DNA of 64,000 nt, taken from assembly GCF_013378055.1 (NCBI RefSeq), contig NZ_CP051130.1, positions 1,922,001 through 1,986,000 of the forward strand, given 5' to 3'. Shown here one piece after another: positions 12,491 through 30,193 of this stretch. Within the stretch, counting starts at the first letter, position 1. Every line of letters starts with the position of its first letter. A model generated the notes under the pieces. That model searched no databases and was not told the origin of the DNA. It was given only the letters and a program-made list of their open reading frames with translations. Source of the DNA: Parasphingopyxis sp. CP4 (GTDB lineage Bacteria > Pseudomonadota > Alphaproteobacteria > Sphingomonadales > Sphingomonadaceae). Both the position numbers and the translations under genes were made by a program.

Positions 12491-12693
12491 GTTTGTAACG
12501 ATTTGAGAGTCGAGTCGCGCGGCAGCGTCTCGTTACGCGCCAATGTTGCAGTGCGAAATTAACCATCAAGAATCCATTGATTCCAAGGACCTGCCATCTT
12601 GGGCCAAAAAAGTCTTGATGAATCCTTAACCGCTGTTCACAAATGAAAAATCAGGGTTTTTTGTTCCGAACTTACACAGGGGGGGGTTCGACA

Positions 12694-15600
12694 ATGTCGA
12701 ATATTTCAAGCCGTATACTTTCACTCGCTACGACCACCGCAGTTGGTGCGCTGGCACTCACGCTGGCAGCGCCAGCCAATGCGATTGTTCCCAACGACAA
12801 TCAGACGCCCGACGATATCGTCGACAATGATGGTGGCGTGAACGGCGTTGGCATGTTTTTCCGCAATGACGGTTTTGTGTGCTCCGGCACATTGATCAAT
12901 CCGCGGACGGTTCTTTTCGCTGCACACTGTGTCAACGATCGCCCCGAAAGCGATTATGACACGGGTGGCGTGATATCATCGGCCTTCTCGTTCGACGTGA
13001 ATGCGCTTCCGGGCTTCCAGGACTGGATCGGCAACGCCTTTGCGTCCAATCCCGAACTGTTCGTCTACAATATCAGCCGGGTCAATTATGATCCGCGCTC
13101 GCTTGCAGATCCCAACGCCTTTGGTTTCCTGGAAGGCGATATCGCGCTCGCAACGCTCGACACGCCGGCATCGGATATCCCGACTTGGGCCTTGCTCTTC
13201 TCGCGCCTCCCCGATCCCGACACGATCGACCCGGTGGATGGCACTGGTTATCACGTCAACATCACTGGCTATGGCCGTTCGGGCAGCGGCACGACCGGCG
13301 CAAGCCAGGGCATCGACTGGCGCCGCCGCGCAGCAGAAAATATGCTGGGCGCGCTGACATCGTTCGATGATCGCAACAACTTCCTGTTCGGCCAGCCATT
13401 TGGCGATCTTCCTAACAACCTTTATCGGCTCGATTTCGATGATCCGAACGCCGCAAATCCGTTCGACTTCAACCTGTACAAGGATGAGCCCCGCGCAAGC
13501 GAAGCAACCACCGCGGGTGGTGACTCGGGCGGACCGCTGATCCTTGATGCGGCTAGCAACGACCTGTCGGACGAAGATCTGGTGATCGGCGTTCTGTCTG
13601 GCGGCAGCCGCTTCTTCGGACCGCAGGTATTTAGCAGCTACGGCACGGAGAGCTTCTATCAGGCGATCTACAATTATTGGGACTATATCGTCGCAACGAG
13701 CCCGTACCGGTATGTTTCCGCTGCAGCGGGAGATCGTAACTGGGATGATCCCAGCCACTGGGTAACCGATCTCGACCCGGCTTTCCGCATCATCAATGGC
13801 GACGGCGAGGTGGTGAATGGACTGCCTGATTTCCTCGGTGCTGGCACCGAAAGTGACGGCCCGGGCTTTGGTGAAGTCTGTTTCGATCCGGTTGGCGCCA
13901 ATCCAGGTGACGGCTGTGGCGATCTTTCAGATGGCACACTGACCCCGCCGGTGCGTGAGAATGCGCCTACAGTGACGGGGGGTGTAACCTCGAGAATCGG
14001 TGTTGCATCGCTTGACGGCTCTGAGCCAGCAGCGGCAGCCGCCGTGGGTCCGGTAAACTCTCCGGCACTTGCGTCTCCGGCTGGGGTTGAAAACGCACCA
14101 AGCGTGTTCTTCCCGACGCCAGTGGGTGCGCCAACGCTCGACAATGGTCTGCCAGGGGCGACGGGTTTCGTTCCGGATAATATCGATCCGGATCCGTCAA
14201 TTGGCCAAGATGGTCGCTATTTCGACGTCACGCTGCGTGAGGCGGGCAGAACCCGCGTTCGCACTGCGCCGACCGTTGATCGGTTGACCCTGCTGGGCGA
14301 TGCGTATCTCCAAATTCGCGAAATCGGCAACTTGACCGTGATCGCCGATTATAACCAAATCGGTGGCCGGCTGCGCGTTGACGGTACCTTGAACACCGGC
14401 GAAGCGCTGGTGATCGACGGTATCATTCGCGGCCGTGGTACGTTCAACCCGACCTTCCTTACGATGGTAGGCGGCAGCCTCCAGCCAGGCGGTTCGGATT
14501 ATCGCACCCTGACAATCCAGGGCGATGTGATCCTGTCTTCGGCCACGAACACAGTGTTCGATCTGGCATTGAACCGGAATGACGCGCTCGCCATTACCGG
14601 CGACAGCGACAATGCTGGCAGCATCGTCCTCGGCGGCAACGCCCGGTTCGTTAATCGCCGAGGGACCTCGGCGCGCGATGGTCAATCCTTTGAGATCATC
14701 ACGACCGACGGTAAGGTTATCGGCGAGTTCGATAACGTCATGACCGCCAATCTTGGTGTATTGGAAGCCAGCCTGGTGTACGGCGACGACAATGTCGTGG
14801 TGAACCTGGATGCCGGTAGCCTTGCCGAGAATCTTGAGGGCGGCAATCCGATGGCCTCGGCCTTTGCAACGGCGCTCGATAGCTTGCGCGGTGGCAGCTA
14901 CACGGATCTCTACAACCTCTATGGCAATATCGACGTGATGAGCGCAGCCAGCCTTACGGCAACGCTGAACAATCTCGCGCCGACGATCGTCAACGAGGCT
15001 CAGGCCGTGAGTGTTGGCCAATATGACATGATGGTCGATGTGGTATCGGATCGTCTGTCGATGCTCGGTACGGGTTCACAGCCAACCGGCACGTTCAGCG
15101 TGGTCGGTGCGCCTGAGATGCTCGGTGTTGCAGCAAGCAACTCCAGTGTATCGCGGGCCGCGGCAACCCAGATGAGCTTTGCCGGACGGGTGGTCTCCAA
15201 TGGCCGCACGCTGGGTACGCTGCCTGACAATATCAGCGGCTTCATCTCGGGTGGTTATGAGAACCGCAGCAGTGCAACGCGCTTTGGCAGCCGTTCGGAC
15301 AATCAGGCCAACTGGCACATTGCCATGGGCCTGGAAGTCGAGGTTGCTGACAATCTGACCGTGGGTGGTGCATCGGCCTTTATCAATGGCCGTACGACGC
15401 TCCAGGGTTCCGAAGCCCGACTGCAGACCAACCAGGCCATGGCCTATGCGTCATACCGCCTCGGTGGCGGCGCATATGTCGCCGGTCTGGGTTCCGCATC
15501 GGTGACCGACATCGAGACGGCACGCTATGCAACGGGCAGCCTTGAAACGGCACGCTTCGGTAACGAAACGCGCGCGCTCAACTATATGGCTGGTGTGGAA

Positions 15601-16059
15601 ACAGGCATGAACATCGGCATCGCCGATGGCTTCGAACTCACGCCGCGGGCCGCTGTTCGCTACAGCCATTCTGAGTTCCAGGGCTATAGTGAAGTGGGAT
15701 CGGAGATCGCACTGTCGATCGATGATATCCGCGAGCAGCGCTTCGAAGGCCGGGTTGGCTTCGCCTTTAGCGGTGAAACCACCGTTGGCGATGGCTGGTC
15801 CCTGCGTCCGCAAATCTCGGCGGACTATGTTCGGGCCATTGGCCAGAGCGAGCGGGACATGACGGTGCGCTTTGCCCAGGCTGGCGGGGTTCCGATCCTG
15901 CTCCCGGGTCTGGCAGCCGACAATCAGTGGACCGAAATGCGCGGCGGGCTTAGCCTGGAGCGCGGCAATGTATCGATCACGACGGCGTTCGAGACCGATA
16001 TCGGCCGTTCCGAACTGCGTGATGATCGCGCAGTCGCGGAGTTCACCTTCCGCTTCTAG
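12694..16059 (+). CDS. Autotransporter serine protease (trypsin-like passenger), copy 1
   Basis: This 1121-residue protein has a signal peptide (residues 1-30, ANA|IVPND), a trypsin-like S1 domain and a C-terminal outer-membrane barrel. The catalytic triad is H78 (LFAAHC), D149 (GDIALATL) and S278 (GGDSGGP). Two to three beta-helix-like stretches (about 480-730) lead into an autotransporter barrel of about 300 residues ending in a terminal Phe, the usual outer-membrane sorting signal. A 60-residue Ala/Pro-rich insertion near residues 410-475 is missing from the neighbouring copy. The ATG at 12694 follows a run of G residues; the upstream in-frame ATG lacks a signal-peptide fit. The protein probably displays or releases a protease at the cell surface. 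The paralogue follows after its terminator. Confidence 0.9.
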   Translation: MSNISSRILSLATTTAVGALALTLAAPANAIVPNDNQTPDDIVDNDGGVNGVGMFFRNDGFVCSGTLINPRTVLFAAHCVNDRPESDYDTGGVISSAFSFDVNALPGFQDWIGNAFASNPELFVYNISRVNYDPRSLADPNAFGFLEGDIALATLDTPASDIPTWALLFSRLPDPDTIDPVDGTGYHVNITGYGRSGSGTTGASQGIDWRRRAAENMLGALTSFDDRNNFLFGQPFGDLPNNLYRLDFDDPNAANPFDFNLYKDEPRASEATTAGGDSGGPLILDAASNDLSDEDLVIGVLSGGSRFFGPQVFSSYGTESFYQAIYNYWDYIVATSPYRYVSAAAGDRNWDDPSHWVTDLDPAFRIINGDGEVVNGLPDFLGAGTESDGPGFGEVCFDPVGANPGDGCGDLSDGTLTPPVRENAPTVTGGVTSRIGVASLDGSEPAAAAAVGPVNSPALASPAGVENAPSVFFPTPVGAPTLDNGLPGATGFVPDNIDPDPSIGQDGRYFDVTLREAGRTRVRTAPTVDRLTLLGDAYLQIREIGNLTVIADYNQIGGRLRVDGTLNTGEALVIDGIIRGRGTFNPTFLTMVGGSLQPGGSDYRTLTIQGDVILSSATNTVFDLALNRNDALAITGDSDNAGSIVLGGNARFVNRRGTSARDGQSFEIITTDGKVIGEFDNVMTANLGVLEASLVYGDDNVVVNLDAGSLAENLEGGNPMASAFATALDSLRGGSYTDLYNLYGNIDVMSAASLTATLNNLAPTIVNEAQAVSVGQYDMMVDVVSDRLSMLGTGSQPTGTFSVVGAPEMLGVAASNSSVSRAAATQMSFAGRVVSNGRTLGTLPDNISGFISGGYENRSSATRFGSRSDNQANWHIAMGLEVEVADNLTVGGASAFINGRTTLQGSEARLQTNQAMAYASYRLGGGAYVAGLGSASVTDIETARYATGSLETARFGNETRALNYMAGVETGMNIGIADGFELTPRAAVRYSHSEFQGYSEVGSEIALSIDDIREQRFEGRVGFAFSGETTVGDGWSLRPQISADYVRAIGQSERDMTVRFAQAGGVPILLPGLAADNQWTEMRGGLSLERGNVSITTAFETDIGRSELRDDRAVAEFTFRF

Positions 16060-16224: not shown

Positions 16225-16364
16225 TCAGGCCAATCCGGTGGTAGGTCCGGCTTCGCCGCATTTCTTGGCACCCGATCATGCTGTTAAAGAAAGATAAATC
16301 TTGATTGTTGGGGCATTTTGAACCTCACCAGATCTATAGTTCGGCTGAACAAGGGGAAACCGTA

Positions 16365-19300
16365 ATGCGCAAGCCATTTTCACGATCCTGTTGGGCCGGA
16401 TGTTCTGCTGTGAGTGCGATTGCTGTCTCGCTCTTGGCGACGGCGCCCGCAAATGCCGTTGTTCCGAACGATAATTTCACACCCGCTGACATTGTCGACA
16501 ATGCAGGCGGAGTGAATGGCGTCGGCATGTTCTTTCGCGACGACGGCAGTGTATGCACCGGGAGCCTTATCAATCCGCGGACCTTCCTGTTCGCCGCACA
16601 TTGCGTGAACGACCGGCCGGAAAGCGATTTCGCAACCACCGTACCGGCCGCCGCCTCATTCGACGTGAATGCATTGCCGGGATTCCAGAGCTGGCTTGGC
16701 AACAGCTTTGCCAGCAACCCAGACTTGTTTGTCTATAATTTGAGCCAGATCGTCTATCATCCCGATTCCTTGTTGCGGCCAGAGGCGCAAGGCTTTCTTG
16801 AGGCGGATATCGCGATCGCAACTCTCGATACCCCGGCGAACAACATCCCGACCTGGGCGTTGCTCTTCTCGCCCCTCCCCACACCAACGATCGATCCGAC
16901 GACCGGTACCGGCTATCATGTGAACATTACCGGCTATGGCCGCACCGGTAGCGGTTCTGTCGGGGATGACACCGACATCGATTGGCGTCGTCGCGCGGCA
17001 GAAAACATGCTGGGCGCATTGGCATCGGCAGATGATCGCAACGCCATTTTCAATTCGGGCAGTGTTCTGACCCAAAATCTTTATCGGATCGATTTCGACG
17101 ATCCCGACCAGAGCAATGAGTTTGATTTCAACTTGTGGCGCGACGAGGCACTGACGCGCGAAGCAACCACCGCCGGCGGCGATTCCGGCGGGCCGCTGAT
17201 CCTCGATGCGGCGAACAATAGCCTGTCGACTGAAGATCTTGTGATCGGCGTGCTTTCCGGCGGCAGCAAATTTGATAACAGCCAGGAGTTCAGCAGCTAC
17301 GGCACGGAAGCCTATTACCAGCCGCTCTACCTGTTCTGGGACTATGTCGTAGCGAACAATCCCTATCGCTATGCATCGGCGCAGCCCGGCGATGGCCGCT
17401 GGGCCGACCGCAACCATTGGATCACTGATCTCGATCCAGCCTATCGGATCATCGATTCGAACGGCAATGTGGTGAATGGCATTCCGGATGATCTGGGTGA
17501 TGGAATTGCCGGCGACGGGCCGGATTTCGGCGAGGTTTGCTCGATCGAGGGCGATCCGGGAGACGGCTGTATCGACCTTGCAACAGGAAATCCGGTACCG
17601 GCCTCAAGTCCGCTTGTGCTTCCCGCCGCGACAATTGAGAATGGCCTGCCTGGTGCCACCGTGTTCGTACCGAACAATATCGATCCGGACCCAGCAAACG
17701 GCACGCCGGGCCGCTATTTTGACGTGACGCTTCGGGAGGCGGGCCGCACGCGGGTATCGCGCAGCTATACGATAGACCGTCTCAGCCTGGTCGGCCCGGC
17801 CCAGCTCAATATCAATGGCCGGGGCGATATCACGGTGCTCGGCGACTTTACGCAGGCGGGCGGGATCTTGCGCGTCGATGGAAGCTTGACGACCGGAGAA
17901 GCCCTGATCGTCGACGGCCTGTTGCGCGGTCGCGGGACGTTCGATCCGACATTCCTGACCCTGGTGGGCGGCAGCATCCAGCCCGGTAATTCCTCGGTAG
18001 GCACGCTCACGGTCATGGGTGGCCTCATACTTTCATCGGACACGCTGAGTGTCTTCGATCTCAGGCATGTCGGCTCCGATCGCATCGAAGTCTATGGCGA
18101 CGCCGATGCCAGCGGTGTCATATCGCTGGGGGGCACGGCCCGCTTCCTGCATCGGTCCGGTTCAGCCCCGCGCGATGGGACCACGCAGGAAATCATTACA
18201 GCAGAAGACGGTATCCAGGGCACATATGATGAGGTTGTACTGGGCGGACTCGGCGTCCTCGTCCCGGAACTGACCTATGGCGCCAACAATGTCATAATCT
18301 CCCTCACCGCTGGATCGCTGGCCGAGAACCTGTCTGAAGACAATGCCCAGGCCAGCGCCTTTGCGCGCGGCCTCGATAGCCTGCGCAGCGATAATTACGA
18401 TGCGCTCTACGGTCTGTACGGCGCTATCGACGTGATGGATGCGGCGCGGCTTACGGCGACGCTGAACAATCTCGCGCCGACGATTGTCAACGAGGCCCAG
18501 GCCGTGAGTGTTGGCCAATATGACATGATGGTCGATGTGGTCTCGGATCGTCTGTCGATGCTCGGTACAGGATCGCTGCAAAGCGGCACGTTCAGCGTGG
18601 TCGGTGCGCCGGAGATGCTCGGTGTTGCAGCGAGCAACGCAAATGTATCGCGGGCAACCGCAACCCAGATGAGCTTTGCCGGACGGCTGGTCTCCAATGG
18701 CCGCACGCTGGGCACGCTGCCGGAGAATGTCAGCGGGTTCATCTCGGGTGGCTATGAGGCCCGCAGCAGCGCAACGCGCTTTGGCAGCCGATCCGACAAT
18801 CAGGCCAACTGGCACATCGCAATGGGCCTGGAGGTCGAGCTGGCTGACAATCTGACCGTGGGCGGTGCATCGGCCTTTATCAACGGCCGCACGACACTCC
18901 AGGGGTCCCAGGCCCAGCTCATGACCAACCAGGCCATGGTCTATGCCAGCTACCAGCTGGGCGGCGGCGCTTATGTCGCCGGTCTGGGTTCCGCATCGGT
19001 GACCGACATCGAGACGGCCCGCTATGCATCGGGCAGCCTGGAAACGGCGCGCTTTGGCAATGAAACCCGCGCGCTCAACTATGTGGGCGGTATGGAAGCA
19101 GGCATTACCATCGGGATTGCTGATGGGTTCGAGGTCACACCCCGGACGGCGATGCGCTACAGCCATTCCGAATTTGGCGGCTATGACGAAGTGGGATCGG
19201 AGATCGCCCTGTCGATTGAAGATATACGCGAGCAGCGCTTGGAAGGCCGGGTTGGGTTCGCGTTCAGTGGTGACACGACAATCGGTGGTGGTTGGTCGCT

Positions 19301-19556
19301 GCGGCCGCAGATCTCGGCGGACTATGTCCGGGCGATCGGCCAGAGCGAGCGGGACATGACGGTCCGCTTTGCCCAGGCCGGCGGCGTACCGATCCTGCTC
19401 CCGGGTCTCGCCGCTGACAATCAGTGGACCGAGATGCGCGGCGGGCTGAGCCTGGAGCGCGGCAATCTATCGATCACGACCGCGTTCGAGACCGATATCG
19501 GCCGCTCCGAACTGCGCGACGATCGCGCCGTCGCGGAACTCAGCCTCCGCTTCTAG
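16365..19556 (+). CDS. Autotransporter serine protease (trypsin-like passenger), copy 2
   Basis: This 1063-residue paralogue of the preceding gene has the same plan: signal peptide (about residues 1-31), S1 protease domain with H79 (LFAAHC), D148 (ADIAIATL) and S274 (GGDSGGP), beta-rich linker and a C-terminal autotransporter barrel ending in Phe. From about residue 700 to the end the two proteins are nearly identical, including long exact runs, whereas the protease domains differ more. Copy 2 lacks the Ala/Pro-rich insertion. AAGGGGAAA precedes the ATG at 16365; the frame extends upstream to TTG codons that lack a signal peptide. Both copies keep all catalytic residues, so both should be active. 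Substrates unknown. Confidence 0.9.
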   Translation: MRKPFSRSCWAGCSAVSAIAVSLLATAPANAVVPNDNFTPADIVDNAGGVNGVGMFFRDDGSVCTGSLINPRTFLFAAHCVNDRPESDFATTVPAAASFDVNALPGFQSWLGNSFASNPDLFVYNLSQIVYHPDSLLRPEAQGFLEADIAIATLDTPANNIPTWALLFSPLPTPTIDPTTGTGYHVNITGYGRTGSGSVGDDTDIDWRRRAAENMLGALASADDRNAIFNSGSVLTQNLYRIDFDDPDQSNEFDFNLWRDEALTREATTAGGDSGGPLILDAANNSLSTEDLVIGVLSGGSKFDNSQEFSSYGTEAYYQPLYLFWDYVVANNPYRYASAQPGDGRWADRNHWITDLDPAYRIIDSNGNVVNGIPDDLGDGIAGDGPDFGEVCSIEGDPGDGCIDLATGNPVPASSPLVLPAATIENGLPGATVFVPNNIDPDPANGTPGRYFDVTLREAGRTRVSRSYTIDRLSLVGPAQLNINGRGDITVLGDFTQAGGILRVDGSLTTGEALIVDGLLRGRGTFDPTFLTLVGGSIQPGNSSVGTLTVMGGLILSSDTLSVFDLRHVGSDRIEVYGDADASGVISLGGTARFLHRSGSAPRDGTTQEIITAEDGIQGTYDEVVLGGLGVLVPELTYGANNVIISLTAGSLAENLSEDNAQASAFARGLDSLRSDNYDALYGLYGAIDVMDAARLTATLNNLAPTIVNEAQAVSVGQYDMMVDVVSDRLSMLGTGSLQSGTFSVVGAPEMLGVAASNANVSRATATQMSFAGRLVSNGRTLGTLPENVSGFISGGYEARSSATRFGSRSDNQANWHIAMGLEVELADNLTVGGASAFINGRTTLQGSQAQLMTNQAMVYASYQLGGGAYVAGLGSASVTDIETARYASGSLETARFGNETRALNYVGGMEAGITIGIADGFEVTPRTAMRYSHSEFGGYDEVGSEIALSIEDIREQRLEGRVGFAFSGDTTIGGGWSLRPQISADYVRAIGQSERDMTVRFAQAGGVPILLPGLAADNQWTEMRGGLSLERGNLSITTAFETDIGRSELRDDRAVAELSLRF

Positions 19557-28582: not shown

Positions 28583-28867
28583 ATGTCGCGTATTTGCGAA
28601 CTGACCGGCAAAGGTCGGCTGGTGGGAATGAATGTGTCCCACGCTAACAACCGGACCAAGAAGACGTTTCTGCCAAATCTGCAGAATGTCACCTTGTTGT
28701 CTGATTCACTCGATCGGAGCTTCAAGCTTCGCGTATCGACCAGCGGTCTGCGCTCGGTCGAACATGTCGGCGGACTGGACAATTGGCTGCTGAAAACGGC
28801 TGATGACAAGCTCAGCCCGAAGGCCCGCAAGATCAAGAAGGAAATTGCCGAAAAACAGGCCGCGTAG
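28583..28867 (+). CDS. rpmB: 50S ribosomal protein L28
   Basis: This 94-residue protein is bL28. The start [11 protein letters not shown], the [15 protein letters not shown] segment and [15 protein letters not shown] are typical of alphaproteobacterial L28. It is a monocistronic unit with a clear promoter and a strong terminator. The rpmG gene for L33 lies elsewhere in the window (5686-5853), unlike the rpmBG pair of enterobacteria. Confidence 0.97.
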
Positions 28868-28945: not shown

Positions 28946-29079
28946 GCGCCAAGCCACAGAGATTCTACGGAAAATCCTCGGAAAATGGCGGTCTCCAGCC
29001 TGTCCCTATTCGAGACAGCCCGCAAGGCTGAGAATAATAGTATTGCTATATGAATGGGATAGAAGAAAGCTATCGGTTC

Positions 29080-29151
29080 GGGCGGGTAGCTCAATTAGAG
29101 CGTGCCGCGGATTACGGTTTGATGTAGGTGTGACCCCTACCCCGCCCACCA
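29080..29151 (+). tRNA. tRNA-like gene with aberrant anticodon, D and T loops
   Basis: A 72-nt cloverleaf is visible: acceptor GGGCGGG/CCCGCCC (7 bp, perfect), D stem GCTC/GAGC, T stem GTAGG/CCTAC and an encoded ACCA end. But the D loop is only AATTA and lacks G18G19. The T loop is TGTGACC rather than TTCGANN. The anticodon arm has a T-T and a G-T pair at its top, and the loop CGGATTA has G where U33 is universal. By position the anticodon would read GAT (Ile). A CTATAT -10-like box at 29046-29051 lies upstream. It is either a decayed tRNA or a specialised tRNA-like RNA; the compensated loss of D- and T-loop contacts with perfect outer stems favours the latter. Confidence 0.6.
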
Positions 29152-29194
29152 GTTTCTCCAACATATGGCGGCCCTATGGCCGCCGTTTCACGTT

Positions 29195-30193
29195 TTAGCC
29201 ACCGGTCCATTCAAACTGCATCAGCAAGGTCCGCTGGAGTGGATTAAAGTTATCGTCGGATGCGATCCACACAATCGTCCGGCCATCCACCTCTTCGATC
29301 GCAATCGCCTCCATATTGTCGACGGTCAACGGTGGTACCAGCCGCGCTATTTCGTCACCGGTCAGGATCGTACCGGAATCGAGCTGCGAAATATCAACGA
29401 GCGAGATGATCACCGAAACCCCGCGCACGACACTGAAATCACGATTGAGAACCAGCAGCTGACCATCCGGCAAAAGTGCGGCATCGGTTATGCGATGCTC
29501 GGCCGGTGGGTGATAGCCAAGCCGAATCGGTGCACCAACATCGGCGTCGCTGGGATCGCTCGCAAAGAGCAACACTTCGCGCGATGATCCCGGGCCATTG
29601 CCGGCTTCCGAAAATACAAGAAAGCGACCATCGTCGAAGCGGACGACAGCTTCGGCCCCGCCATTGTTGGGCCAATCGTCCATGGCATCGGGCGCATGAT
29701 TGGCATCCGATCCGGTAAAGTCTCGATCATAGCGCCACAGTCCATTGGCCCGTTCAAAGGCTACCCAGAAGCGACCGGTTTCCGGATCGAACGCCATTGC
29801 CTCTGCATCGCGATCGCGCTTCTGCACCGCACCGCCATTAGGTGGTATCGGACCTGCAGGCACCTCTCCAATATCCGCGCGGCTGATCTGGCCGCGCTCG
29901 TCCAATGCAAAGCGGAATATGCCGCCCGCATCGCCAATCGCGACAAAGCCATCATCGACGCGCGCAATAGCCGAGATGCCGCCAAAGTCAGGATCGCCAC
30001 TGTTCAGCGTCCAGCCCGCCAGAAAGCGCAACGGACCCATGTCTCGACGGTCAGGATTCGTCGGATCAAGGACCGTCGGAACGGCCTGGATCGCCAGCGT
30101 GTTGCCCGGCTCTGCGCGTTGACCTGCCCCCATCAGGACCACGGATCCCGCGACGAAAAACACGACAAGAGCAGCGGCAACACGGCGAAGCAT
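29195..30193 (-). CDS. Exported esterase-like (phytase-family) beta-propeller protein
   Basis: This 332-residue protein has an N-terminal signal or anchor (about residues 4-24). The mature part matches the 'esterase-like activity of phytase' family (PF13449): FGGISAIARVDDGFVAIGD, a DAEAMAFDPETGRFWVAFE block, GGAEAVVRFDDGRFLVFSE and DNMEAIAIEEVDGRTIVWIASDDN (only partly quoted). These acidic, repeat-like segments form a propeller that binds Ca2+ in related phytases. The family lacks a firm activity in most bacteria. It is a single gene converging with the tRNA-like gene. Confidence 0.85.
   Translation of the reverse strand: MLRRVAAALVVFFVAGSVVLMGAGQRAEPGNTLAIQAVPTVLDPTNPDRRDMGPLRFLAGWTLNSGDPDFGGISAIARVDDGFVAIGDAGGIFRFALDERGQISRADIGEVPAGPIPPNGGAVQKRDRDAEAMAFDPETGRFWVAFERANGLWRYDRDFTGSDANHAPDAMDDWPNNGGAEAVVRFDDGRFLVFSEAGNGPGSSREVLLFASDPSDADVGAPIRLGYHPPAEHRITDAALLPDGQLLVLNRDFSVVRGVSVIISLVDISQLDSGTILTGDEIARLVPPLTVDNMEAIAIEEVDGRTIVWIASDDNFNPLQRTLLMQFEWTGG

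Follow-up and report, generated by a model that had tools for sequence, protein, structure and literature searches.

A small family of putatively non-decoding tRNA-Ile(GAU) genes related to tRNA-Ile2(CAU) in two genera of Sphingomonadales

A 72-nt tRNA-like gene of Parasphingopyxis sp. CP4 raises the question of whether a cloverleaf that has lost several hallmarks of a decoding tRNA is a decayed relic or a working RNA with another task. The gene lies in a window of 64,000 nt, which is the whole stretch of DNA that was analysed. We favour, with roughly even confidence, the view that the element is a working member of a small family derived from a tRNA: a tRNA-Ile(GAU) that does not decode but is probably charged with isoleucine and employed elsewhere than in translation. 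The narrower proposal that a specialised Ile-tRNA family split from tRNA-Ile2 (through a CAU-to-GAU change and the dismantling of U-turn and elbow) and supplies isoleucine to a non-ribosomal reaction in Sphingomonadales is put forward tentatively. To our knowledge, very few bacteria have tRNAs dedicated to work outside translation and no earlier tRNA-Ile of this kind has been described, and the Sphingomonadales family would, if the proposal is true, be the first. A search of open-access papers on Sphingomonadales with the terms tRNA-like and anticodon returned nothing.

The first-pass annotation had described a cloverleaf with an encoded ACCA end, lacking U33, the D-loop GG and the T-loop TTC and carrying T-T and G-T pairs in the anticodon stem, and had placed the anticodon by position as GAT. 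Sequence and folding bear out each of these points, as the following features indicate:

29080-29151, forward strand: putative non-decoding tRNA-Ile-like gene, 72 nt with encoded ACCA (from sequence, fold and alignment)
29093-29097, forward strand: D-loop AATTA, 5 nt, without G18G19
29108-29114, forward strand: anticodon loop CGGATTA, with G33, GAT at 34-36 (29110-29112) and T37
29129-29135, forward strand: T-loop TGTGACC, without T55 C56; A58 is kept in all seven family members

The acceptor stem GGGCGGG/CCCGCCC (7 bp) is followed by TA, the D-stem GCTC/GAGC, an anticodon arm TGCCG-CGGATTA-CGGTT with a T27.T43 mismatch and a G28.T42 wobble, a 4-nt variable loop and the T-stem GTAGG/CCTAC, after which CCCGCCC and ACCA close the 3' side. 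The minimum free energy fold (-29.1 kcal/mol, z -1.88) is the cloverleaf, except that the mismatched pair at the top of the anticodon stem does not form, and the family as a whole keeps the 7/4/5/5 cloverleaf with 3' CCA of canonical elongator tRNAs. A tRNA scan, as had been proposed at first pass, made no call at 29080-29151 with either ARAGORN or Rfam (gathering and permissive), and in the rest of the window found a tRNA-Phe only.

A DNA search of relatives revealed close homologues at the syntenic place in two other Parasphingopyxis species (G005 and G006), and five congeners (G001, G002, G004, G008 and G009) have neither the element nor any tRNA there. Thus, in these relatives the place carries either the odd element or no tRNA at all, never a normal tRNA, which runs against the possibility raised at first pass that the gene is an isolated decayed copy of one. 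Outside the genus, a member was found in Sphingosinicella sp. YJ22 among the listed matches of a pattern scan (the strain is present twice in the sample, as G436 and G443, at the same contig position), and covariance-model searches added three members from the same genus (G390, G448 and G449). These four species carry their homologues at loci other than the Parasphingopyxis place, and the family comprises at least seven sequences in two genera of Sphingomonadales. Since the distribution is sparse (at least 3 of 10 Parasphingopyxis and at least 4 of 26 in the second genus), any role of the element would be an accessory one.

No further members were found in two overlapping samples, about 400 genomes of the taxonomic family and 396 of the order, nor in phage, plasmid and viral collections. 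In the last covariance search, non-family matches scored at most about 73 bits versus 86-96 bits for family members; the non-family matches, only some of which were read, are 75-77 nt long and fit normal tRNA-Ile2 and Ile-GAT. Pattern-scan matches in Weissella, Phycisphaerales, Dependentiae and others proved to be normal tRNA-Ile(GAT) with U33 and GG present, and a three-mismatch match in G042 was rejected as lying outside any cloverleaf context. Three viral contigs (L168, L170 and L178) carry tRNA-like genes that start with TGCTGGGTTAGCTCAAAAGTAGAGC, have the loop CTGATAA and lack G18G19 and TTC (GAGCGTTA in the T-arm); these are unrelated to the Ile-like family. ARAGORN labels the YJ22 and G390 copies ordinary tRNA-Ile(gat) despite their having no U33 and no GG, and tRNA tools miss the members in G000 (the host), G448 and G449. 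The ARAGORN calls of family members as tRNA-Ile(gat) stand at L120:1254-1325 and L183:1501-1575. Annotation as ordinary tRNA-Ile may hide more members, and such genes may be widely overlooked.

The locus is framed by two syntenic markers and by candidate signals on either side of the element:

28583-28867, forward strand: a gene that we read from its sequence as rpmB (ribosomal protein L28), the upstream syntenic marker
29001-29017, forward strand: palindrome TGTCCC-N5-GAGACA (also given as TGTCCC-N5-GGGACA), some 70 bases before the element
29043-29074, forward strand: conserved promoter-like stretch from TTGCTA (29043-29048) to GCTATC (29069-29074), with spacing that is not consensus
29167-29184, forward strand: hairpin GGCGGCC-CTAT-GGCCGCC followed by a T-rich stretch, by reading a probable terminator
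29195-30193, reverse strand: phytase-like gene (PF13449), the downstream convergent syntenic marker

In all three Parasphingopyxis species (G000, G005 and G006) the element lies downstream of rpmB and upstream of the convergent phytase-like gene, and in G006 an ORF that we read as RidA-like stands between rpmB and the element. This presumed RidA-like ORF is found between rpmB and the phytase-like gene in both G006 and G002 (loci L226 and L231), and seemingly only a remnant of it is left in G008, a picture of rapid turnover of this intergenic place. The neighbours in the window are a TadA-like deaminase, rpmB and the phytase-like gene; elsewhere they are, as we read them, topoisomerase IB-like (G390), PriA-like (YJ22) and phospholipase D-like (G448), and no neighbour protein is shared among the 20-kb neighbourhoods of the G390, YJ22 and Parasphingopyxis elements. 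Further off in the window, two adjacent large ORFs (12643-16059 and 16305-19556; 1138 and 1083 aa) both encode trypsin-like autotransporters (PF00089, PF03797).

The CTATAT -10-like box reported at first pass is indeed present (29046-29051), but it is conserved only in part, G006 having CCAAAT there; the GCTATC that adjoins the element (TCTATG in G005) is better conserved. A consensus promoter scan gave only a weak site, different from the TTGCTA/GCTATC stretch, and no support for a promoter. The TGTCCC palindrome precedes the element in all three Parasphingopyxis species and is a putative regulator site, placed as an activator site would be. The downstream hairpin was not called in a terminator consensus scan, and G005 and G006 have different hairpins at the same place. 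In each of the three species the element has a palindrome before it and a hairpin after it, an arrangement that suggests a regulated unit.

With regard to descent, model R1 scored tRNA-Ile2(CAU) best among normal tRNAs (56-61 bits, with others at most 46 in the host), and a FastTree of tRNAs groups the elements in one clade (support 0.957) with Ile2 beside it (0.906). By score and tree position, the family is shown to have arisen from tRNA-Ile2(CAU). With this apparent ancestor it shares the GGGC acceptor start, the D-stem, the CCGC..ACGG anticodon arm and the TGCAGG T-arm, whereas the ancestor has a CTCATAA loop with U33, a D-loop GG, a T-loop TTC and a 5-nt variable loop. A separate normal tRNA-Ile2 gene was found in G000, G005, G006, G390 and G448; in the host it is one of three CAT tRNAs present besides the element, along with the elongator and the initiator. 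The YJ22 element groups with Parasphingopyxis (0.978) and not with its own genus, a placement in a tree on 72 bases that is weak evidence; together with the different loci in G390, YJ22, G448 and G449, it suggests transfer or relocation rather than simple vertical descent.

The positions invariant in all seven members comprise G1G2G3C4 with G69C70C71C72 and A73CCA in the acceptor; U8, A9, G10C11U12 with A23G24C25, A14, A15 and A21 in the D region; C29C30G31 with C39G40G41, C32, G34A35U36 and A38 in the anticodon arm; and U48 and A58. The anticodon loop is C-R33-GAU-Y37-A throughout, with A or G in place of the U33 of the U-turn, and in most members a cross-loop pair A33-U37 could form, leaving a GAU triloop. 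No member has the D-loop GG. The joint loss of both sides of the elbow, claimed at first pass, holds for six of the seven, YJ22 alone having kept U55 C56, though without a GG partner. Given the invariant U8, A14, A15 and U48 and the missing GG, the core contacts U8-A14 and A15-U48 can form and the elbow contacts 18-55/19-56 cannot. The bacterial isoleucine identity set consists of A73, C4-G69, U12-A23, C29-G41, G34 A35 U36, A37, A38 and the D-loop residues G16, U20 and U21 (PMC9976931). Each of these is present in all seven members except A37 (Y37 in 7/7) and the D-loop residues, the D-loop being shortened or changed, and those kept were already in the Ile2 ancestor, apart from the new G34. 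As bacterial-type IleRS relies strongly on t6A37 as a determinant (PMC9976931) and A37 and the D-loop determinants are lost, efficient charging by IleRS is uncertain, and charging may be poor.

Taken in isolation, the window element could pass for a decaying tRNA pseudogene: it has the T27.T43 mismatch, has lost U33 and GG and is called by no tRNA finder. Across the seven aligned sequences, however, 98.0% of base-pair cells are standard and seven pairs have changed on both sides, the compensatory pattern that the first-pass annotation had named as proof of function. The covariation score was reached by 0 of 500 shuffles, counts that are not probabilities given the few related sequences, and slid controls pair at 34-47%; six homologues with covariation make the element more than a product of chance. 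Element identity among the three Parasphingopyxis species is 85-90% versus 46-68% at the four-fold degenerate sites in four flanking genes that are conserved (binomial P = 4e-9, 9e-8 and 8e-6 versus the highest four-fold rate of each pair), and by this comparison the element is under purifying selection. Since the derived states (a purine at 33, G34, a pyrimidine at 37, a variable loop shortened by one base and a D-loop lacking GG) are common to all members in both genera, independent decay appears very unlikely. The absence of selective constraint that marks a pseudogene is thus contradicted by covariation and by conservation far above neutral sites, and we regard decay as highly improbable.

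Scarcely more credible is a divergent tRNA-Ile(GAU) that still decodes AUC, a reading to which the GAT at 34-36 and the ARAGORN label of the YJ22 and G390 copies lend some colour, as does the lack of a visible canonical Ile-GAT in the host genome, where the rRNA operon has 5 kb masked. That masked stretch probably hides canonical Ile-GAT and Ala-TGC; other relatives (G156 and G386) have a visible canonical Ile-GAT, no member has U33 or A37, and most relatives are without the element, which therefore cannot be needed for AUC. The main rival is an uncharged tRNA mimic, possible though in our view doubtful. It would act as a decoy or a regulator, either by base-pairing via its conserved loop CAGAUUA or by binding a protein that handles tRNA (IleRS, a modification enzyme, an anticodon nuclease or a toxin). 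With A37 and the D-loop determinants gone, binding would be favoured over efficient charging; of the inner parts, the anticodon arm CCGC-R-GAT-Y-ACGG is conserved best; the sparse and relocating distribution resembles that of accessory or conflict genes, and Bacillus cereus tRNA-Other, poorly charged and off polysomes, offers a precedent (PMC3399842). Against a mimic, neither the encoded ACCA nor the acceptor end GGGC/GCCC varies, which is what use of the 3' end would predict, and the identity elements outside the loop are kept.

The preferred reading, an isoleucylated non-decoding tRNA, would have begun with a copy of tRNA-Ile2 in which C34 became G34, such that lysidine (TilS) was no longer needed and isoleucine identity was kept. 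Loss of U33, A37 and the elbow would keep the element off the ribosome and prevent decoding; once transcribed, it would receive isoleucine from IleRS, and either the Ile-tRNA or the uncharged form would serve outside translation, as a sensor of isoleucine or as the donor that an aminoacyl-tRNA-dependent enzyme draws on. The logic would be that of staphylococcal tRNA-Gly (PMC4052509) or, for a regulator, that of B. cereus tRNA-Other (PMC3399842). The seven natural variants, with cloverleaf and core kept and elbow and U-turn lost, offer a direct way to tell the tRNA parts needed on the ribosome from those that synthetases or other enzymes use.

The likeness to staphylococcal cell-wall tRNA-Gly, whose partner is FemXAB, was already drawn in the first-pass annotation, and it stands in logic (G18G19 lost, stems kept) but not as homology, the element deriving from tRNA-Ile2(CAU). 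A partner gene is known for the staphylococcal tRNA, whereas none was found in the 20-kb neighbourhoods of the G390, YJ22 and Parasphingopyxis elements. The non-proteinogenic staphylococcal tRNA-Gly has a full cloverleaf with G18G19 replaced and a predicted poor use in translation (PMC4052509), and loss of the G18G19 contact is common to it and the element family. It is marked by the weak EF-Tu T-stem pairs A49-U65 and A51-U63, whereas the element family keeps G49-C65 in six of seven members and had A51-U63 already in its ancestor; the element is closest to tRNA-Ile2, with anticodon GAT, and both ancestor and phylum are different. B. cereus tRNA-Other (pseudo-tRNA) is similarly tRNA-like, outside translation and sparse in relatives, but it has a Trp anticodon, is poorly charged with lysine and is located in a larger RNA beside a pathogenicity island (PMC3399842), with no apparent sequence link to the element. 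Allo-tRNAs and other non-canonical bacterial tRNAs are likewise unusual tRNA genes from a genome scan, with 8/4 or 9/3 acceptor domains and Ser identity in the allo-tRNAs, in contrast to the 7/5 domain and Ile-type elements seen here (PMC7609411). Because ancestor, anticodon and taxa differ, the element, judged from its sequence, is neither a staphylococcal tRNA-Gly nor a B. cereus tRNA-Other.
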